A DNA stretch of 48,696 bases, taken from assembly GCA_937911345.1 (NCBI GenBank), contig CALDPP010000197.1, positions 1 to 48,696 on the forward strand, written 5' to 3'. The stretch comes from an uncultured euryarchaeote. Lineage in GTDB: Archaea; Thermoplasmatota; Poseidoniia; Poseidoniales; Poseidoniaceae. Below, in pieces: positions 31,476-43,410 of this stretch (its first letter is position 1; each line of letters starts with the position of its first letter). The translations under genes were made by a program, and so were the position numbers. The notes under the pieces are model-generated. The model was given only the letters and a program-made list of their open reading frames with translations, did no database searches and was not told the origin of the DNA.

Positions 31476-32522
31476 ATGCTTGTAAAACAGTTGAATAACC
31501 TCAAACACTTAGTTCAAGATATGACGGAGGACTCCCTTGGTAGACCTCTCAAAGATTTACGCATTTCTATAACCGATCGCTGTAACTTTCGCTGTAATTA
31601 CTGTATGCCTCCAGATCAATTCTCAAATAACCATGAATTCCTGCCGCGCAGCGAAATATTGAGTTTTGAAGACATAACACTAATTGTCAAATCAATGTTA
31701 AGTCTAGGATTAAAAAAAGTAAGAATAACTGGTGGTGAACCATTACTTAGAAAAGACATCTGTACGCTTATATCCATGATTAGAGAATGTGATTCTGATC
31801 TCGATATTGCCTTAACTACAAATGGCAGTTTACTCAGTAAATTTGCTGATGATTTAGCAAAATCAGGATTAGATAGAGTTACCGTAAGTATTGATGCAAT
31901 TGATGACAAGATGGTTAGGGAGATTTCAAACTCAAACGTATCCTCACAAGAGATTGTCGATGGAATTATCGCTGCTAAAAATTCCGGGTTGAAAGTAAAA
32001 GTCAATACAGTTGTGATCAAGGATTTTAATGAAAACCAAATCATCCCGCTGGTGGAATTATTCTATAGAATGAGAGTTACTGTTAGGTTTATTGAATATA
32101 TGGATGTTGGCGGGACAAGAGACTGGAACCCTAATCAGGTTGTTTTTGGTGAAGAAATGAGACGCATTATTGAGCGAGGAATTGGAACGCTTAGTCCGGT
32201 AAAAGATTCTCAATATGGAGAGGTAGCAAACCGTTGGTGTTTAGAAGATGGTTATCAAATTGGCTTTATTGAATCAATCTCAAAACCGTTTTGTAACTCA
32301 TGTACAAGAGCACGGATTTCTGCAAATGGTAGTATCTATACATGCCTGTTCTCAGAACACGGACACGACTTGAAATCACTGATAAAAATGGGCGCTGAAT
32401 CAAAGGATTTGACTGATGCAATTGCAGCAGTATGGGGCAAAAGAGAAGATAGGTACTCGGAAATTCGACAAACTATAACCTCTAAATCAAAGCCTGTGCA
32501 AATGCACTTTATTGGTGGTTAA
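31476..32522 (+). CDS. moaA: GTP 3',8-cyclase MoaA (radical SAM)
   Basis: DLRISITDRCNFRCNYCMPP (CxxxCxxC), VRITGGEPLLRKD, CNSCTRARISANGSIYTCLF, C-terminal GG. Start could be ATG 31521. Confidence 0.94.
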   Translation: MLVKQLNNLKHLVQDMTEDSLGRPLKDLRISITDRCNFRCNYCMPPDQFSNNHEFLPRSEILSFEDITLIVKSMLSLGLKKVRITGGEPLLRKDICTLISMIRECDSDLDIALTTNGSLLSKFADDLAKSGLDRVTVSIDAIDDKMVREISNSNVSSQEIVDGIIAAKNSGLKVKVNTVVIKDFNENQIIPLVELFYRMRVTVRFIEYMDVGGTRDWNPNQVVFGEEMRRIIERGIGTLSPVKDSQYGEVANRWCLEDGYQIGFIESISKPFCNSCTRARISANGSIYTCLFSEHGHDLKSLIKMGAESKDLTDAIAAVWGKREDRYSEIRQTITSKSKPVQMHFIGG

Positions 32523-33013
32523 TCCTCAATTAGAATTAGTTTTACGTCAAACAACAAACGGTTTGAACTTTGATCGATAAGTTTCATGCTCCAGGTGCCA
32601 TCCTTTGAGCCAATGGTTTCTGAATCAATTACGAAGTAATCTCCTTGGGTTACTGAATAACCAGCATCCCTATCGTGGAATGAAACATTGGAACCAACTA
32701 CTCCATAGACATCTGGGTCATCAACAAATCCACTATGTTCCCTAGAATTCAAATCATTTTCATTGTATATTTGGTATTCTAATCGAGCTGGATCTAAAGA
32801 TTGGTCTAGGTTGGTAATTCTCACAACATGAAATCCATTATCTAACCCTTTAACGCTAACTGAAACCTCTGGCTCTGCTTTTTCTACAGAGTTAATAGCA
32901 CCCTGCATCATAACGAAAACCATACTTGAAAGCATTACAGTAATTGCTAGTAGCAGAACTGTGGCAATAACCGGACTGACCGCTTCACAATCTCGGGTGC
33001 GGTAATTGTCCAT
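32519..33013 (-). CDS. Archaeal type IV pilin-like protein (class III signal peptide)
   Basis: MDNYRTRDCEAVSPVIATVLLLAITVMLSSMVFVMMQG typical archaeal pilin N-terminus. Confidence 0.85.
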   Translation of the reverse strand: MDNYRTRDCEAVSPVIATVLLLAITVMLSSMVFVMMQGAINSVEKAEPEVSVSVKGLDNGFHVVRITNLDQSLDPARLEYQIYNENDLNSREHSGFVDDPDVYGVVGSNVSFHDRDAGYSVTQGDYFVIDSETIGSKDGTWSMKLIDQSSNRLLFDVKLILIED

Positions 33014-33093: not shown

Positions 33094-34071
33094 TTACAAC
33101 TTACGAGTTGTGGCATATTCAGCAACATTTTCAAGCAACAATTTCGCATTGCAATCTGGAAAGATGCTGAGATGATTAATCGCTCTTTCGAAATGATTGT
33201 TGATTAATATCTTAGTGTAATTAAAGCTATCAGATTTTTCTAGCAGTCCAATTAATTCATCAAATAGTTCATCACTAAAATTATTGATTATTTCTGCTAA
33301 CCTCTCCCTATTTTTCCCATGAGACAAAGTTAACGAGTGGATAAGTGGTAAGGTCATCTTGCCTTCATGAACATCTGTACCACGTGGTTTACCAATTTGG
33401 TCATCACCGAGTAAGTCAAGTAAATCATCAACTAATTGGTAAGCTATACCTATCTCGTTACCAAATTCTTCGAGAGCCTCTAGTTGTTCTTGATTTGCTC
33501 CTGCTACAATACCTGCGCTTCGACAGCCTGAAGCAAAAGGACCGGCAGTTTTTCCTTTCACGATGCTAATATAATCCTCTGGAGACGTTTTCAAATTCTG
33601 AATGTGATCTATTTGAGAGAATTCCGAAACCGCGATACTAGAACAACAGTTTGCAATATTAGTCACAATGTCTTGATTATACTGGCCCCCCAAGGCGTAG
33701 CCTTGGACAAATAACCAATCGCCAGCGATTATCGCTTTTGATAAACCAGATGTTTCGTGAATCGTTGGTATTCCTCGCCTGTGAGTTGCCCCGTCGTTGA
33801 TATCATCATGAACCAAAGTTGCAGTGTGAAGGAATTCAAAGGCCATGGCTAATGGCATGATTTTTGATAACTCTTGACCACCAGCGATTTCGTATGATAA
33901 ACACATCATTATTGGCCTTAGACGTTTACCTCCAGCCAAGAGTACCCTCCCGGATAATTCGACTACTTCTCCAGAATCTATTCTAGAAGCAATCATCTCT
34001 TCTAAGGCAATATCGATCTGTTGACGTAGAGATTCTAGACCATGTTCGACAGCCGGCTTAATCTGCGCCAT
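33094..34071 (-). CDS. Polyprenyl (geranylgeranyl/farnesyl) diphosphate synthase
   Basis: GGKRLRPIMMCL, TATLVHDDINDGATHRRGIPTIHE, QLVDDLLDLLGD; start MAQIKPAVEHG at 34071 (tracked ORF starts 34134). Confidence 0.92.
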   Translation of the reverse strand: MAQIKPAVEHGLESLRQQIDIALEEMIASRIDSGEVVELSGRVLLAGGKRLRPIMMCLSYEIAGGQELSKIMPLAMAFEFLHTATLVHDDINDGATHRRGIPTIHETSGLSKAIIAGDWLFVQGYALGGQYNQDIVTNIANCCSSIAVSEFSQIDHIQNLKTSPEDYISIVKGKTAGPFASGCRSAGIVAGANQEQLEALEEFGNEIGIAYQLVDDLLDLLGDDQIGKPRGTDVHEGKMTLPLIHSLTLSHGKNRERLAEIINNFSDELFDELIGLLEKSDSFNYTKILINNHFERAINHLSIFPDCNAKLLLENVAEYATTRKL

Positions 34072-34145
34072 GAACCATCCACCTAGGGTGCCCTTCTTAA
34101 CCAATGGTCTACGCCCACAAATTGTTCGGAGCAATCTGAGCCGAG

Positions 34146-35309
34146 GTGTTGGAGATGGAAGAAAAGCCTAGATTAGAGGTTTTAACTACTCCATCAAACT
34201 ATGATGGTGTTAGGCTTCAGGTCGAAAATTTGATTGTGAAAAATCGTGACTCATTTAATTTCAAAATGACTGAATTACCCCACATGGAGGTAGCAATTGA
34301 GAGTCTTAAATCTGGTACTGCTGATATGTTAGCAATGAGCATTGAACAGTGGAAATCTTTGGATGTTGAAGGCCTCAAAATTTCTGCCTTTTTACCAAGA
34401 AGAGAGCCAACTTGGGTCCTTGTTGGCGATGATAAACCGGAGTATTTACCACTGAATGCGACGGTTATATGTCCAAAAAAATTGATCAAGAGACAATTGA
34501 TAAGAATGAGACCGGATCTCTTGGTATATGACTTGAGAGAGTTTCTCGAGTTAGAAAAATTATCCTTGGATAGTGAAGTTGTTGATGATGGAGGAGGGCT
34601 TGAACTCCTGGAAAAATTGCGAAACGATGGCTTGATTGACGGATATGTGATATCACGCGGCCAATTTAGTCAGATTAAGTCTAGAGTCAGGCGTCACACA
34701 TTAGGAATGCAAAGAGAGAAACCCTCTCAAGAATTTGAACGTTCAACATTTATTTCTCCTCCTTTGGAGGGATTTACCGTCCTTGTATCTAGAGAAGGAT
34801 TTCCGATTTCAGTGGTTAAAAATCTCAATGATACTGCTGCAGAGACTTGCTATACTGTTGAAAACGCAATCTTTGAATCTCTGTCGGATGAGTTGAAGGA
34901 GATTTGTGGGATTTTTGTAGAACAAAAGAAATTATCGACTATCTTGAAACAATATGTCAAACTAATTGATGATTCATACGCTTTGAAAATTGGCGAGAAT
35001 TATTTGATTCCAAGTAAGAAAAAAACTAGAGATTTAAGAACTAAATGGAATCCATCAAGAAACATAATCCAAGGACCTAGAATCTGTATTTACTTTGAAT
35101 TACTCAGTAAAAACAGCAATGTATCCCTAGAATTAGTCCGAATTGAACCAATTTTGGAAAACCGATATGATAGGGGTAAAAATGTCCTAATTCAAGAAAT
35201 AAAGTTCCTAGTTGAATTATTACAACAAGATCATGATGAGTTGAAGAGGTTAATCAATGGATTGCCTGAAGAATATCGACTAGCAAGGTCCGGCCTACTG
35301 GAATTGTAG
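34146..35309 (+). CDS. Protein resembling hydroxymethylbilane synthase (HemC), probably divergent or inactive
   Basis: AIESLKSGTADMLAMSIEQWKSLDVEGLKISAFLPRREPTWVLV...LPLNATVICPKKLIKRQLIRMRPDLLVYDLREF resembles HemC blocks by eye; key residues differ. Confidence 0.5.
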   Translation: MLEMEEKPRLEVLTTPSNYDGVRLQVENLIVKNRDSFNFKMTELPHMEVAIESLKSGTADMLAMSIEQWKSLDVEGLKISAFLPRREPTWVLVGDDKPEYLPLNATVICPKKLIKRQLIRMRPDLLVYDLREFLELEKLSLDSEVVDDGGGLELLEKLRNDGLIDGYVISRGQFSQIKSRVRRHTLGMQREKPSQEFERSTFISPPLEGFTVLVSREGFPISVVKNLNDTAAETCYTVENAIFESLSDELKEICGIFVEQKKLSTILKQYVKLIDDSYALKIGENYLIPSKKKTRDLRTKWNPSRNIIQGPRICIYFELLSKNSNVSLELVRIEPILENRYDRGKNVLIQEIKFLVELLQQDHDELKRLINGLPEEYRLARSGLLEL

Positions 35310-35310
35310 G

Positions 35311-35910
35311 TCACTCGGATTCTGCATTGGACTTATTTTCGACTAGTTTGTCGAATCCTTGATTTGAGATGTATGTTTCTAAATCGATTAATTCTGAAGG
35401 GGTTTGGTCATCACACAAATCGGTTATTGATTGGTCAATATCTCTAGCAATCCTTTCCCAAGTACCAGCAAACCTTTGCAAATCGGAAGCAAATCTTTCG
35501 ATTGCTTCAACAGCTGACATGTTTGGATGTAAGACCAATGAGATGTCATTAGAAATTCTTTCATTTGCTTTTTTCAAACGATTGATATCACCAAACAAAT
35601 CTACCATTGTCAGACGCAATTCATCTAGGTTGTTTGTCTTGGAGAATCTTCTCTGGGCCTTTTCGACTGATTTCTTCATGCTTCCAATTCCCGCAACCAT
35701 CGCTTCTCTAGCCTTGGAGGATTCTAAAATCGCAGTTTCTGCCTCAGAAATCCGTTGATTTAATGCTTCTTCTAAGCCACTAAGATTTTTCTTGAAATCA
35801 TTCTTGACTGTCTCTGACAGAGATTCTACTAACATATTCGTTTCTTTTAAGGCACTTTTTGCAGATTTGTAACTCCTACTCATAGCGCTCACCAATGTGC
35901 CTCTGTGCAA
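35311..35910 (-). CDS. Coiled-coil hypothetical protein
   Basis: Heptad-rich charged sequence KSALKETNMLVESLSETVKNDFKKNLSGLEEALNQRISEAET... Confidence 0.65.
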   Translation of the reverse strand: MHRGTLVSAMSRSYKSAKSALKETNMLVESLSETVKNDFKKNLSGLEEALNQRISEAETAILESSKAREAMVAGIGSMKKSVEKAQRRFSKTNNLDELRLTMVDLFGDINRLKKANERISNDISLVLHPNMSAVEAIERFASDLQRFAGTWERIARDIDQSITDLCDDQTPSELIDLETYISNQGFDKLVENKSNAESE

Positions 35911-36039
35911 GGTTAAATGTCAAGTATACAATACCTTTGCGGAAGTAAAAAAACACCTCAAAAACCAAAAGAAAACTTGCTCATGATAGCGAAACCACAT
36001 ATACTGCTTTGTACGCATATCGAACAAGGTGGTAAGATT

Positions 36040-37803
36040 ATGGACAAGGTAGACCTTCTTTGCGAGTTATACCAAGCCAAATTTGATCGCTTGAAAGAAA
36101 TGGCATCTGTCAGCGATTTACCGAAGAATGGCCCAGTTGAAGTTGTTAGAGCAAGGCTGATAAAAAATCTAGTCTTATCTGAATGGGATTTATCAAAAGA
36201 AAGTATAAAATCAATAAAAAATAAACAACTCGGAGAGATTTTGGGTGTGTTTGGCCTAAAGAAGTCTGGTTCAATAAGAGAACGCCGACAGAGGTTATAC
36301 TTGCACTTATACCAAGATCCAAAACAATTAACTGCAGAAAATCTTGACAAAATGAATAAACAAGAAATACATTCTCTTTGTAAAACTCTCGAACTACCAC
36401 TGACTGGTGACAAACAAACTCTGCTCGTTAGAGTGGCTGGTGTCTTAGCTTCACAACAGGGTTCATGGGGGAAAGTGAAAAAATCTCTAAAGCGGAAAAA
36501 TGACAATGCTAAATCAAAAATCATAATTCCAAATCCTTCAGATGATGAAGATTACAATTCAACTGACATTCATGATTCAGTTGAAAAATTCATCGAAGAT
36601 CACCCGGAAGGTTGGAGTTTCGAGGATGAGTCTGAATTAAGAAATAATCTAGCTGAAGAGGGACTTGATATTTCTAGAGTCGAGGTCTCCAATACCATAG
36701 ATGATGCTTTGAAAAATGTTCACGCTAATCACGAAACTCCTGCTCCTATCCCGCAAATGAACCAAACTGCTCCAAGCATTGTAGGAGAAGATGATATCGA
36801 CACATTAGAAAAAGAGGCTGCAATCATTGAAGTTGAGTCTAGATTAGCAGAAATAGAGGCTGCTGCACGTGATTTCTTAACTGTAAGTTCATCAGCAAAC
36901 AGTGAGGACCTTGAGTTGTTTATATCTAGTTTAGGCAATCATGGATTGCCTGTTGATGTAAAGTCAGTACGTTCTTACTTGGCAGACTTAGTGATGAAAA
37001 TTGAGTTCAAAATAGAATCAGAAAATAATGCAATAAATAGCATGCCAAATTCATGGTCCGAACGTGAAGCAGTAAGACAATTTGAAAATTCTAGGAGTTC
37101 TTTAAGAGACCAATTATCTAACACAATTGATTTGCATAACGGTGACTTAGTCAAAGCTAGAATGGCTTTCGAAGAAATTGCCAAGTCAATGGGTCTTGAT
37201 TTAAGGATACCAAGTATTTCGGGAAGATTACATGCTTTATTCGACCTGCATATAGATTTGTCAGAGGCAGAAGGTTTGCAAGACCCAAATATCGCTAGAA
37301 GAAATCGTGTCTTGAAAATATTACATCATGGTTCAGTTCATGTAACACCGGAAGAAAGGCGAGTTATTGCTAGACTTGAGAGAAATATTGTTGCATTTGA
37401 ACAACTAGTTGAAACAGTTATGGAATCATCCGAGGGAACATTCACAGAATCACAACAAGCACTAATAATTAGGTTCCTTGAATCTAGAGGTTATGATGTT
37501 AACACTCCGGATTTAAGGCCGAAAGTTCTTGCTGCATCCGGAATAATTGGTGCTGAGTTAGGATATTTGTCACCATCAGAGATCCCAAAAATTGCACCAG
37601 GTGTTGTGGTATCGGATAGTGAAGTGGATTCAATAATTACTGAACTTAAATCACTTGCTAGCAGTTTCAAGCCAAAAAGTGATGACAAAACTGAGGATGT
37701 TATAGCTGCAGATGAAAATCTAAATGATGCAGGAGAAAGAGTAAAATCTGCTAGAGAAAAGATCAACCATATCGATGATATCTTAGCACGCCTAAGAGGC
37801 TAA
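36040..37803 (+). CDS. Multi-repeat protein with SAP-like N-terminal motifs
   Basis: ATG 36040 after AAGGTGG; SAP-like segments (SVSDLPKNGPVEVVRARLIKNL, LGEILGVFGLKKSGSIRERRQRLYLHL, IHSLCKTLELPLTGDKQTLLVRV) followed by repeated G-L/Y-D/P modules. Confidence 0.65.
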   Translation: MDKVDLLCELYQAKFDRLKEMASVSDLPKNGPVEVVRARLIKNLVLSEWDLSKESIKSIKNKQLGEILGVFGLKKSGSIRERRQRLYLHLYQDPKQLTAENLDKMNKQEIHSLCKTLELPLTGDKQTLLVRVAGVLASQQGSWGKVKKSLKRKNDNAKSKIIIPNPSDDEDYNSTDIHDSVEKFIEDHPEGWSFEDESELRNNLAEEGLDISRVEVSNTIDDALKNVHANHETPAPIPQMNQTAPSIVGEDDIDTLEKEAAIIEVESRLAEIEAAARDFLTVSSSANSEDLELFISSLGNHGLPVDVKSVRSYLADLVMKIEFKIESENNAINSMPNSWSEREAVRQFENSRSSLRDQLSNTIDLHNGDLVKARMAFEEIAKSMGLDLRIPSISGRLHALFDLHIDLSEAEGLQDPNIARRNRVLKILHHGSVHVTPEERRVIARLERNIVAFEQLVETVMESSEGTFTESQQALIIRFLESRGYDVNTPDLRPKVLAASGIIGAELGYLSPSEIPKIAPGVVVSDSEVDSIITELKSLASSFKPKSDDKTEDVIAADENLNDAGERVKSAREKINHIDDILARLRG

Positions 37804-37804
37804 G

Positions 37805-39043
37805 TTATCTCGTAGCGTAGAAGTTCTGGATTACTTGGGTTACGGTTTGTATGTCTCTTATATCTCTACCAACTAAGTCTTCCAATATCTTTTGCCTTTG
37901 ACTTACATGCTTTTCAAATACATCTGGTGTTATACCTGCTGCTTGACAAATAGTCTCTCTCATCTTCGATGGAATTCCTGTTTCCTCAATTCGGTCATTG
38001 GCGGGATTGTATTTCCAAATTATGTTTAATCTTGGTTTAGTTCCTTCCATACCCGCAATTTCAGCAACTTCGGTTATCTTTCTTGCTGTTTTTCCATTGA
38101 CATGTAACCTTGCTTGAATAATAATTAAATCCAAACCAGTAAGCATGATAGGTGGCACCAACATCGGAGGGTTGATCATTCTGGTCACTGTCTCTTGAGC
38201 CGTATTTGCGTGGAGTGAACCAAACGATCCATCGTGACCTGTATTCATTGCAGTAAGCAAAGTCGCAGCTTCAGGACCTCTAACTTCACCAACAATTATC
38301 CTATCTGGTCGCATTCTCAAGCTTGACTTAAGACAGTCATTCATGTCTACCTCAGGAGTTCCATCTGGTCGCTCTCGACGGGTTTCCATCCTAAGCCAAT
38401 GGTCGTGATATACTTGCAATTCAGCAGTATCTTCTACCGTTAATAATCGCCTGTGCCATGGTATGTACATACCCAAACAATTCAGTGTTGTGGTTTTACC
38501 GGAACCAGTTCCACCTGCAATAACAAAGTTTGCTGGACGACTGTCAAGACCTTCTATCCAAACCCACATCATTGCAGCAAGTCTAGAATTTACTGTACCA
38601 AATTTGATTAGATCAAGCATAGTCAAAGGGTCTTCTCTAAATTTTCTAATTGTTAATGTTGGGCCGTCAGGTGAAATTGGGGGTATCGTTCCATTAACCC
38701 TTGAACCATCTGGCAATCTGCCATCAAATATTGGTACCAGTCCCGGTCCATCACCGAGTGGGACATTGGTAAATGATGCAATGTTTTTGGCGATTTGGAT
38801 TCCACTATCATCATCAATCCAAACATTGGTTCGGCACATGCCGTGGTTTCTATGAGCAACTTTGACACATTGAGTTCCACCGTTATACATAACTTCCTCA
38901 AGATTATCATCCTCGAGTAAAACCGCTAAATCGCCATAGGGGTTAGGATCGATTGAACCATCAACGTGGTAAATTGGCGATGGGTGATTTGGTTCTGTGT
39001 ATATTGTTACTCTTCCATATTGTTCTAATATTTTTTCAGACAT
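37805..39043 (-). CDS. Type II/IV secretion-type ATPase (TadA/FlaI/VirB11 family)
   Basis: FVIAGGTGSGKTTTLNCLGMYIPWHRRLLTVEDTAELQ (Walker A), SLRMRPDRIIVGEVRGPEAATLLTAMNTGHDGSFGSLHANTAQETVTRM. Confidence 0.93.
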   Translation of the reverse strand: MSEKILEQYGRVTIYTEPNHPSPIYHVDGSIDPNPYGDLAVLLEDDNLEEVMYNGGTQCVKVAHRNHGMCRTNVWIDDDSGIQIAKNIASFTNVPLGDGPGLVPIFDGRLPDGSRVNGTIPPISPDGPTLTIRKFREDPLTMLDLIKFGTVNSRLAAMMWVWIEGLDSRPANFVIAGGTGSGKTTTLNCLGMYIPWHRRLLTVEDTAELQVYHDHWLRMETRRERPDGTPEVDMNDCLKSSLRMRPDRIIVGEVRGPEAATLLTAMNTGHDGSFGSLHANTAQETVTRMINPPMLVPPIMLTGLDLIIIQARLHVNGKTARKITEVAEIAGMEGTKPRLNIIWKYNPANDRIEETGIPSKMRETICQAAGITPDVFEKHVSQRQKILEDLVGRDIRDIQTVTQVIQNFYATR

Positions 39044-39046
39044 GAA

Positions 39047-39778
39047 TTAACCTCCAATCATTTTTACTGCACCTAGATAGAGTAACATCGATGTTGACAT
39101 CCAAAATGGCACCCACCATAGCATATCCCTCATTCGTCCCATCATCCTTCCTGAAACTAATGCTCCTACTGCAGAAGCAACAGCAAAGAAGTTAGAGAAT
39201 GTTGAATTAAAATCATTGATCTGATAACCTGATTTTGCTGGAGCAAACAAACCAACAATGAATGCAATCAAAACCGGTAGCCCTATACAAACAAACATTA
39301 CAATCAAGATTCCTCTACCTGCAAGTTCTGATTCCCTTTTATTCATCAAATCATTAAGCCGTTCATAGTCCATGGCTAAGTCTGATAGTATGTTTTGTAG
39401 AGGAGCATCCTGTTGAATCGCTGTATCAATCAATACTACAACCCTTTGAACTTGGGATGAACGAGTCTTTGAAGCGAATGCAGATAATGCTGCGTCAAAT
39501 GATGAAGCATGGCTACTCTCTAGTGTTTCAGTTAGTAGTTTACCTAGGACTCCTGGGGTATTTCTGCCTTGTTCAAGCATAGCTTCTTGCAGACCTCTAC
39601 CTGCACCAACTGCGTCTGATAATGACTCTAGGAGGCCAGGAAGTTGATTCTCGATTCCTCTTCTACGACTTCTCTCAATTATTGGCGGTATTCCGCCAGC
39701 TGCACATGCAATACCAATGACAAAAAGGAATAAAACAAACATATTGTCATTAAATGCTTCCATAAAATCGAAAATCAT
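39047..39778 (-). CDS. TadC/GspF-like pilus assembly membrane protein
   Basis: QLPGLLESLSDAVGAGRGLQEAMLEQGRNTPGVLGKLL..., multiple C-terminal TMs, adjacent to the ATPase. Confidence 0.82.
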   Translation of the reverse strand: MIFDFMEAFNDNMFVLFLFVIGIACAAGGIPPIIERSRRRGIENQLPGLLESLSDAVGAGRGLQEAMLEQGRNTPGVLGKLLTETLESSHASSFDAALSAFASKTRSSQVQRVVVLIDTAIQQDAPLQNILSDLAMDYERLNDLMNKRESELAGRGILIVMFVCIGLPVLIAFIVGLFAPAKSGYQINDFNSTFSNFFAVASAVGALVSGRMMGRMRDMLWWVPFWMSTSMLLYLGAVKMIGG

Positions 39779-39779
39779 G

Positions 39780-40361
39780 TCACAACCCCGGATCTTTTGT
39801 ATGTGCTTTCAGGCCAATTAACATCATTCCAATCACAGTAAATATTAATCCACCGTTAACTATTGAATTTATCATACCTTGGTCTATAGAACCTATTATT
39901 GCTTCGGCACCATCACCAAGTATCTGTGGCACGAGCCCTACAATGGCCAAGATAATTGGGCCAATCATGCCAATTGAGAGTAGTGTTTCTGGAACCCCGC
40001 CTAAATCTTCAATGTACTTGTTAACAGATTCATTTCTGTCTTCTTCCATTCTTTTACCTTGTTTTCTTAATGTTTCAACCAAATCCGTATTTTGTGTTAA
40101 GTTGGTGTACATTGTATTCAGTAATCTACGATAGCCTTCTGATTCTGCTTTATTCATCATGGCTTTCACTTCGTATTCAAGACCTCTAGATTTCCCGGAA
40201 CCTAACTTTTCCATTATTGAAGAAAAATCTTTAGAAATTATACCATAGCCTCCCTTACCTATTGTGTGTAGCGCTGCCTCAAGCCCAACACCTGATGACA
40301 TTAAGACATCTAAGGTTCTAATAACATAGAGAATTTCTTTCTTCTCATCTAATTTCCTCAA
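39780..40361 (-). CDS. TadC/GspF-like pilus assembly membrane protein (second copy)
   Basis: LYVIRTLDVLMSSGVGLEAALHTIGKGGYGIISKDFSSIMEKLGSGKSRGLEYEVKAMM..., C-terminal TMs; TTG start. Confidence 0.8.
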   Translation of the reverse strand: MRKLDEKKEILYVIRTLDVLMSSGVGLEAALHTIGKGGYGIISKDFSSIMEKLGSGKSRGLEYEVKAMMNKAESEGYRRLLNTMYTNLTQNTDLVETLRKQGKRMEEDRNESVNKYIEDLGGVPETLLSIGMIGPIILAIVGLVPQILGDGAEAIIGSIDQGMINSIVNGGLIFTVIGMMLIGLKAHTKDPGL

Positions 40362-40786: not shown

Positions 40787-41713
40787 CTAGACTAATCTAA
40801 ACCAACCAAATGCGGGTTCATGAACCGTGCCATCATCTGATAATTCTTCCAGTTTTTCTTCCGCAATTGTACGTTGAAATCCTCGAGCCTCCGCATTAAC
40901 TAAAATTGTCTCAAACTCAACACCATCACCTTGATCTAACTTTGTAATGATATCAATAATTGCGGTTTCTAAGTCCGACTGGCCTTCGCTTTCGCCATCA
41001 TCTTGAGATGATTCCTCAACTAGCATCCTTTGTGGAGCAGGTTTTGTTGCCGCCTCTAACTTCCCTTCCGCAATATCAAGAGCTTGCATTACATTCAAAC
41101 GATAATGTTCCAAATCAATATCACCATAATGGTTTCTTGAAGATACCAAACCTAAAATTTGATTCTCAGTGAAATCTGACTTAGATAGAGATTCAATATT
41201 AGCATCGAAATCTAAACTTGATACATAAATTGACATTCTTTCCATCAAAGATTGAGAGGTTTTTGCTAACCAAGATGCATATCTTTGTGCATCGATTACG
41301 CACATTTCTTCAGGCCTTAGTGATGTGTAAATTGCACCCTCTTCCGTTTGGTAAAGCCTGGTCTTAGCGACCATCAAAACCAACACCGGCTCACCTGATT
41401 CTAGTCTTGCAGATAGCTGAATGGTCATTTCTTTGACAGAATCTGAAACATAATCACCGACTGAGAAATAATTTATTCCTGATGGATCCCTTAATTGTCC
41501 TTGATAAATTACTGAGCCATTAGCAACATCTCTGCCTTCAATTCTCTCAAGCAAACCTGCAACAATTACTCGGTTGACCCGAGAACCAAGTTTTGTTATT
41601 ACAAATGATGGGTCAAATTCCCCGGAACCTTTCTCGGACAATGTAGATTCACCATATTCTGATGCAAACATGTGTAGCGCAGATTGGCGCTTTACTGACC
41701 TCGTTGGTTGCAT
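40787..41713 (-). CDS. RPA-associated (RPAP/COG3390-like) OB-fold protein
   Basis: RQSALHMFASEYGES...VNRVIVAGLLERIE...YQGQLRDPSGINYFSVGDY; translationally coupled (TGATG) to the upstream RPA gene. Confidence 0.8.
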   Translation of the reverse strand: MQPTRSVKRQSALHMFASEYGESTLSEKGSGEFDPSFVITKLGSRVNRVIVAGLLERIEGRDVANGSVIYQGQLRDPSGINYFSVGDYVSDSVKEMTIQLSARLESGEPVLVLMVAKTRLYQTEEGAIYTSLRPEEMCVIDAQRYASWLAKTSQSLMERMSIYVSSLDFDANIESLSKSDFTENQILGLVSSRNHYGDIDLEHYRLNVMQALDIAEGKLEAATKPAPQRMLVEESSQDDGESEGQSDLETAIIDIITKLDQGDGVEFETILVNAEARGFQRTIAEEKLEELSDDGTVHEPAFGWFRLV

Positions 41714-43410
41714 CAGTTAACCCCCCATTGCGCTCTTACTTCTGTCGCAAGCATGGCTCCATCATCTGGCTTTAAACCTGCATAGTCAGCTAAAATCATA
41801 GCTCCCTGCTCATCGACTATTGTTCGACCTTTTACTTCTAGTTCTCTTCCAAGAAGGAAATCTCTCAAAGATTGGACAAATTCCATCTTTCCCTCTGAAT
41901 CTATGTCTGAAGCCATCTTTTCTTCGGTAGTATTGATTAATTTGAGTGCAGCATCTTTGTTAATCAAAAGAGATGCCGTTACTTGACCATTATCGACCAC
42001 TAACCGAAGCCTAACATCTTGTTGTGATTCTACCTTACCATGTATGCTACATTCTCCGTCCCTTAGCACCCTCCTACATTCCGAACAACGCATAATGATT
42101 CCAGAATCTTCTCGAACGCTGACAACTGTCCCAGATGTTGAAATCCCGACTCTGCTAGATGAATTAACCAAATCAGTAAGTTCAACTTCTACCACATGAT
42201 CTTGTAGGTCTAGGTCATCATCCCATGGCGGAGACTCCAAAATTTCAATCTGTTCGGCTTTGTCAACGGTTATGTCTGGTATACCTTGCCAAGCCCTAAC
42301 TCTTACCCCGGTTAGCTTAACAGTTATCGGGAGGTCTTTATCTGAAATAGGTAATTCTTCCCAAGCACTCATCCTGCATCTACCAGTTGGGTCAGCAATT
42401 TGTCCGGACCAGAGAAATCTTTCTTCACCATCTTTAGTGAAACTTCTCTTTTGCCATTCAGTAATCTGTACTATTGCTTCTACATCTCTTGAACCGTCAG
42501 TCAATTGAGATATTGTTTTCATATTGTGCGAATTTAATTTCTCAATGTTAGCAAAATTAGCATCGTGAAATGATTCTATCTTGGTAGTCCTGCCAAAATT
42601 AAGTTCTGGAGTATCGCGAAAAGTCCTTACCTGAGCGCCATCAATCTTGATTAGGCTACCAACTTCATGGCTAAATGGCTCCCAAGATAGGAACCCAATC
42701 GTTCCTGTTTCGTCGGCAATTCGACCCCTTACGACGTCTATAGAACCAGAACCGTCTTTTCGATGTATTTGGTCTGGCCTAGAAGATAGTACTCTTCCAA
42801 CTACGCAGATATATCCGTCATTTGGTATACTATCTATGTCAATAGGCTCTCCTGGTTGATGCACTGGCCTAGTACCTTCTCGTAATACAGCAACTCTTGC
42901 TCCTTGGTTTATGTTTAGCGACATTTTTCCTTGATACTCATTTACCGATGCACCCTCTATTCTGATGACAGATCCGGGTGTAATGTTTGTATTGGGACCC
43001 CAATCCTTGTATTCCCATCTAACTCTACTACCACCTTCTTCCCATGGATTATCTTCGATTAATCCAAAAGCGATCTGCTTTTGTTCACCTCTGATTGTTT
43101 GTTCTCTGAGATTATGTGATACTACCTCAACTTCAATCTCTATGTCTCTGTCAGTTCCAGATAGTTCGGATAATGAACTCACCTTCTTTGTCTGTCTAGT
43201 AGTTTGACTACTTGACTTAGTTGAGTTTGCTGGAGTTTTATCTCCTTGAAATCGCCTGATTATAGACCTGAGTGCATCTTGTGGAGGTATGTAAAATTCT
43301 TCCTCATATTTCACAAAAGCAGCCTTTATCTCATCAGTATCTGCTTCAGGGCATTCTGATAATACTGCTTTGATATGAGATTCATACTTGTCATCTGACA
43401 AATAAAACAC
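41713..43410 (-). CDS. Replication protein A (multi-OB-fold ssDNA-binding protein)
   Basis: Repeated OB domains (GRIADETGTIGFLSWE, GQIADPTGRCRMSAWEELP), zinc-finger-like CSECRRVLRDGECSIHG. Confidence 0.88.
   Translation of the reverse strand: MFYLSDDKYESHIKAVLSECPEADTDEIKAAFVKYEEEFYIPPQDALRSIIRRFQGDKTPANSTKSSSQTTRQTKKVSSLSELSGTDRDIEIEVEVVSHNLREQTIRGEQKQIAFGLIEDNPWEEGGSRVRWEYKDWGPNTNITPGSVIRIEGASVNEYQGKMSLNINQGARVAVLREGTRPVHQPGEPIDIDSIPNDGYICVVGRVLSSRPDQIHRKDGSGSIDVVRGRIADETGTIGFLSWEPFSHEVGSLIKIDGAQVRTFRDTPELNFGRTTKIESFHDANFANIEKLNSHNMKTISQLTDGSRDVEAIVQITEWQKRSFTKDGEERFLWSGQIADPTGRCRMSAWEELPISDKDLPITVKLTGVRVRAWQGIPDITVDKAEQIEILESPPWDDDLDLQDHVVEVELTDLVNSSSRVGISTSGTVVSVREDSGIIMRCSECRRVLRDGECSIHGKVESQQDVRLRLVVDNGQVTASLLINKDAALKLINTTEEKMASDIDSEGKMEFVQSLRDFLLGRELEVKGRTIVDEQGAMILADYAGLKPDDGAMLATEVRAQWGVN

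Follow-up and report, generated by a model that had tools for sequence, protein, structure and literature searches.

What does a gene encode that looks like hydroxymethylbilane synthase (HemC) but appears to lack its active site? HemC is a normally conserved enzyme of tetrapyrrole synthesis, and the Poseidoniales (Marine Group II), in which the gene occurs, rank among the most abundant archaea in surface ocean waters. The window analyzed here is a stretch of 48,696 nucleotides from an uncultured member of this order (assembly GCA_937911345.1, contig CALDPP010000197.1). An initial annotation, made from the sequence alone, described an open reading frame at 34146-35309 as a HemC-like protein that appears to have lost catalytic residues and that could be a repurposed substrate-binding-like fold. 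We confirmed the observation and, as far as it can be tested, our results support the interpretation. We consider it likely, with good confidence, that the protein descends from HemC, makes no hydroxymethylbilane, and uses its fold for another ligand or partner.

Gene start and intergenic region

The features of the locus are listed in Table 1. Judging from an alignment of 26 upstream regions, the HemC-derived gene most likely starts at the ATG at 34155, because the motif GAGGTG precedes this ATG in most relatives. The GTG at 34146, taken as the start in the initial annotation, overlaps this Shine-Dalgarno-like motif; protein residue numbers given here are counted from that GTG. The divergently transcribed polyprenyl synthase gene probably starts at the ATG at 34071, not at the TTG at 34134. 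Between the two genes, GGGTGCCCTTCTTAACCAATGG is the sole copy of its kind in the window at up to three mismatches, and a second family of genomes carries a related form, GGGTCGCATATATCAACGGGTG, at the same intergenic place. The element may be a promoter, TATA-type in look in the case of GGGTCGCATATATCAACGGGTG. By the HemC-derived protein, the nearest relatives are Candidatus Poseidoniaceae and Euryarchaeota metagenome-assembled genomes.

Table 1 Features of the HemC-derived locus, in window coordinates
Feature	Position	Strand	Basis and remarks
Divergent polyprenyl synthase (GGPP-synthase type)	33094..34071	-	Pfam PF00348, E=3e-61; adjoins in 26/26 loci
Promoter-like element GGGTGCCCTTCTTAACCAATGG	34086..34107		Conserved; inside the 83-bp divergent intergenic region
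Shine-Dalgarno-like GAGGTG	34143..34148	+	Precedes the ATG in most of the relatives (26 upstream regions aligned)
HemC-derived protein, coding sequence	34155..35309	+	384 aa; listed ORF begins at GTG 34146; relatives in 60/60 Poseidoniales genomes
Segment matching HemC domains 1-2 and start of domain 3	34299..34937	+	hhalign P 1.5e-13; Foldseek; residues 52-264 (from GTG 34146), E. coli HemC 68-256
C-terminal region of HemC-derived protein	34938..35306	+	No significant profile match
Small convergent gene	35311..35910	-	Between HemC-derived and SAP-like genes; 12/26 loci; part of first family only
SAP-like, partly helical protein	35917..37803	+	Weak Pfam SAP matches under cut-off; next conserved neighbour in 26/26 loci

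The protein is a very distant relative of HemC

Taken singly, the window protein gives a weak indication of HemC. It matches NCBIfam TIGR00212 over residues 53-131 with E=6e-4 and 18.9 bits, which does not reach the family cut-off of 164 bits, and Pfam PF01379 with E=0.024. Among 26 relatives, 12 match PF01379 (best E 3.4e-5) and seven match TIGR00212 (best E 7e-7). When a 66-member alignment of the family was compared by hhalign with an alignment of 23 HemC sequences from E. coli and archaea, the two were collinear over 184 columns, reaching E. coli HemC 68-256, with a score of 103 (probability 98%, P 1.5e-13). As controls, 200 HemC profiles shuffled by column or by block scored no higher than 38.5, and reversing the profile gave 17.8. 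Because the observed score lies far above these controls, the product of the open reading frame is a very distant relative of HemC (overall identity about 17%) that shares common ancestry with it across two lobes.

The part corresponding to domain 1 (family positions 1-110) aligns with HemC on its own (P 1e-9), as does the domain 2 part, less significantly (P 1.7e-5). In the profile comparison, no significant HemC alignment was obtained for family positions 1-48 or beyond residue 264, so that only the beginning of HemC domain 3 is covered. By its sequence pattern, the remaining C-terminal region could represent domain 3 with an insert. The initial annotation had pointed to blocks in the order and spacing of hydroxymethylbilane synthase; all of the peptides it quoted are present in the frame, and its four block pairings are those of the computed alignment. 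Matches to PDB sequences of a fucosyltransferase and a haemagglutinin (E 0.04-0.3, in single-sequence and profile searches) were regarded as noise, and Pfam matches to YlzJ, Nup54, BCCIP and Cas_GSU0053 were set aside as they occurred in single members and were not common to the family.

Structure prediction points in the same direction, with models of low to medium confidence from shallow alignments that serve as supporting evidence. The full-length AlphaFold model, from nine close sequences, was poor (pLDDT 46), and the two-lobed core was therefore folded alone, from eight close sequences (pLDDT 69, pTM 0.53). In Foldseek, the first 31 PDB matches of the core model were all porphobilinogen deaminases, followed by other type 2 periplasmic-binding domains, and the full-length model had the same leading matches. 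The TM values to HemC were about 0.45-0.49, from models of pLDDT 46-69. Together with the profile comparison, the models thus favor the type 2 periplasmic-binding fold that the initial annotation had suggested.

Catalytic and cofactor-binding residues are lost, and a new set of arginines is conserved

In E. coli HemC, the dipyrromethane cofactor is linked to an invariant cysteine, and the roles of the residues considered here have been described (PMC3945110, PMC3949521). The D84A and D84N variants are inactive, as are R131L and R132L, in which cofactor binding fails (PMC3945110). The window protein has Gln at the catalytic D84, in agreement with the earlier reading of MSIEQ in place of the SLKD motif, and this position is variable in the family, with Asp in 19 of 66 sequences. 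The adjacent K83 column is also variable and holds Glu in the window protein. At R131 and R132, where TSSLRRR had been read as degraded to CPKKLIK, aliphatic residues are found across the family. None of R149, R155, R176 and Q198 is conserved, and R11, which lies in a weakly aligned part, is replaced by Thr or other residues. In place of the cofactor cysteine C242, most members have Leu, Ile or Met, with no conserved Cys nearby, and a deletion of about 19 residues has removed the region of the active-site loop. The proposed loss of catalytic residues therefore holds family-wide and extends to the cofactor cysteine and to arginines that bind cofactor or substrate.

Judged by these residues, the HemC-derived protein does not work as any known type of HemC. 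Annotation as hydroxymethylbilane synthase should be avoided, because the defining catalytic features are missing despite its descent. This is also a warning to annotators that weak HemC matches in Poseidoniales are not to be taken as haem synthesis.

Other HemC positions are mostly kept, namely D76, R101, R140, D142, G199, E231 and G247 in E. coli numbering. These scaffold positions lie mostly outside the catalytic set. In addition, R116, Q117, R120, R122, R171, R182, R183, H184 and R216 are near-invariant in the family (97-100% of the 66 sequences, from both families of genomes). Seven of the nine are arginines, and most of these have no arginine counterpart in HemC. One of them, R171, aligns with V171 of E. 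coli HemC, a residue that touches the polypyrrole chain in simulations (PMC3945110). The invariant arginines may form a new ligand site; any placement of them in a cleft would be tentative, as the models are built on 8-9 close sequences (pLDDT 46 and 69).

The family thus shares with HemC (porphobilinogen deaminase; TIGR00212, PF01379) a collinear, probably two-lobed core and most scaffold residues, but differs from it in having lost the catalytic Asp, Lys and Arg residues, the cofactor Cys and the active-site loop. It differs further in its extra C-terminal length, its own arginines, and the absence of any tie to the tetrapyrrole pathway.

The gene is universal in Poseidoniales and decoupled from tetrapyrrole synthesis

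A profile search found the HemC-derived family in all 60 Poseidoniales genomes, including 26 of the 26 best genomes and all 17 genera, with one match per genome except for one genome with two fragments. In a sample of 194 genomes from the one phylum that the search covered, 48 of 48 Poseidoniales were positive. The family was not found in the other 146, five of which belong to the other family of the class, barring six weak local matches; the strongest of these (E 7.6e-4, in a 311-aa frame) is probably an ordinary HemC. A scan of viral contigs returned no relatives. Between close relatives dN is 0.11-0.25 and dS is saturated, so that no dN/dS ratio is given; values of this kind indicate purifying selection.

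Ten of the 60 genomes have a true hemC: nine with a match above cut-off, and the genome of the window with a contig-truncated copy. The hemB gene occurs in exactly these 10 genomes, and both genes are missing from the other 50. As the HemC-derived gene is present in all 60, it is decoupled from tetrapyrrole synthesis. Whether the genome of the window holds another hemC or further tetrapyrrole genes, a question raised in the initial annotation, has a direct answer: contig C120 carries a true HemCD fusion, distinct from the present gene, with hemB after it, and the HemC-derived protein is therefore not the HemC of this organism. The HemCD fusion, the true HemC of the order, is of the same superfamily and found in the same organisms, but it has canonical catalytic motifs and a fused HemD, adjoins hemA and hemB, and is limited to the 10 genomes. 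In an exploratory tree, poorly supported, the HemC-derived family forms a separate long branch outside the fusion. An origin from the Poseidoniales HemCD fusion thus finds no clear support in this tree.

The gene for the haem-copper oxidase subunit COX1 was detected in 58 of the 60 genomes, compared with hemC and hemB in the same 10. From this gene content, most Poseidoniales look unable to make haem yet seem to need it. A short literature search found no paper naming missing haem synthesis alongside COX1 in Poseidoniales.

A catalytically dead relative of HemC is therefore a core gene of Poseidoniales, retained in genomes without the pathway. Its persistence without catalytic residues, also in genomes that no longer make haem, makes a new use of the fold probable, and the repurposing proposed in the initial annotation appears well founded. 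In the explanation that we prefer, this HemC lineage would have lost hydroxymethylbilane synthesis and kept the two-lobed periplasmic-binding-type fold. A different, probably anionic, ligand or partner would be bound through an arginine set including R116, R120, R171, R182 and R183, and the protein would act in binding, regulation or scaffolding, not as an enzyme of tetrapyrrole synthesis.

We know of no described non-catalytic branch of HemC, and a limited literature search found no description of the HemC-derived protein or of such a branch. The family, as one gene that is universal in its order and fixed in its neighbourhood, offers a defined target for studies of enzyme-fold reuse. It may be among the 199 protein families reported as associated with Poseidoniales (PMC9258230).

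A conserved neighbourhood and alternative roles

The order of divergent polyprenyl synthase gene, HemC-derived gene and, on the same strand as the HemC-derived gene, SAP-like gene is fixed in all 26 loci, from both families of genomes. A geranylgeranyl-reductase-type gene lies nearby in 20 of them. The outer flanks vary between groups of loci, and the three-gene block has therefore survived rearrangement on both sides. In the sister family of the class, the best-matching synthase gene is located elsewhere, with neither a HemC-derived nor a SAP-like gene beside it; in four of five genomes it directly follows a gene that reads as isopentenyl-diphosphate isomerase-like. The conservation of the block suggests a possible functional link between its members.

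A specific form of the repurposing explanation makes the protein a regulator or ligand sensor for the isoprenoid lipid branch. It would bind a prenyl diphosphate or a similar anion and exert control over the divergent synthase gene, possibly with the SAP-like neighbour as partner. The constant synthase, the frequent reductase, and the conserved element in the shared intergenic region are all consistent with this role, and the same fold forms the effector domains of regulators such as OxyR. However, no DNA-binding domain was recognized in the HemC-derived protein, gene order alone is weak evidence, and the SAP match lies below cut-off. We regard this role as tentative and on balance unlikely. 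Its broader implication, that an enzyme of the haem pathway became, throughout an archaeal order, a non-catalytic ligand sensor in control of the synthesis of membrane isoprenoids, possibly with the SAP-like protein as a DNA-binding partner, is doubtful to the same degree; to our knowledge, no HemC-derived regulator is known as a use of this enzyme fold.

Less likely still is a tetrapyrrole or haem carrier that lost catalysis and retained binding of a pyrrole chain or haem, which could be useful where haem is not made but a haem-copper oxidase is kept. Its HemC ancestry and the excess of COX1 (58/60) over hemC and hemB (10/60) would fit such a carrier. Against it, the arginines and the lysine by which HemC binds the pyrrole carboxylates have been exchanged for other residues, genomes with the complete pathway carry the gene just as regularly, and no haem genes lie beside it.

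It is improbable that the protein is a non-HemC member of the type 2 periplasmic-binding fold, such as a LysR-type effector domain or a transporter-binding protein, that is HemC-like in fold only. The general fold class appears to be shared and an identity of about 17% would allow it, and OxyR/LysR-type, SsuA and MetQ domains, with a two-lobed fold of this class, are the next-best structure matches after HemC. Against this, HemC is the sole family with consistent Pfam and NCBIfam support, its structures fill the 31 best PDB matches ahead of the others of the fold, and HemC positions away from the active site are conserved. The HemC-derived protein also differs from OxyR/LysR-type, SsuA and MetQ domains in having no helix-turn-helix domain and no evident signal peptide, and their sequence families are unmatched. 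Finally, an enzyme that still makes hydroxymethylbilane with an unusual active site and stands in for lost hemC would explain its presence where hemC is absent, but is extremely improbable given that the 50 genomes without hemC also lack hemB, whose product would be the substrate, that neither the catalytic Asp nor the cofactor Cys nor the Arg residues for cofactor binding have been retained, and that D84A/N and R131L/R132L inactivate E. coli HemC (PMC3945110).

Other genes around the block

A type II/IV secretion ATPase gene followed by genes for two probable membrane proteins occupies 37805-40361 of the window, and an archaeal type IV pilin gene lies at 32519-33013. Together these are probably a pilus or archaellum-type cluster, which several second-family genomes lack in the stretch that was compared. 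Two genes at 40787-43410 have weak similarity to single-stranded-DNA-binding proteins (OB-fold, RPA-like) and are found near the block in most loci.
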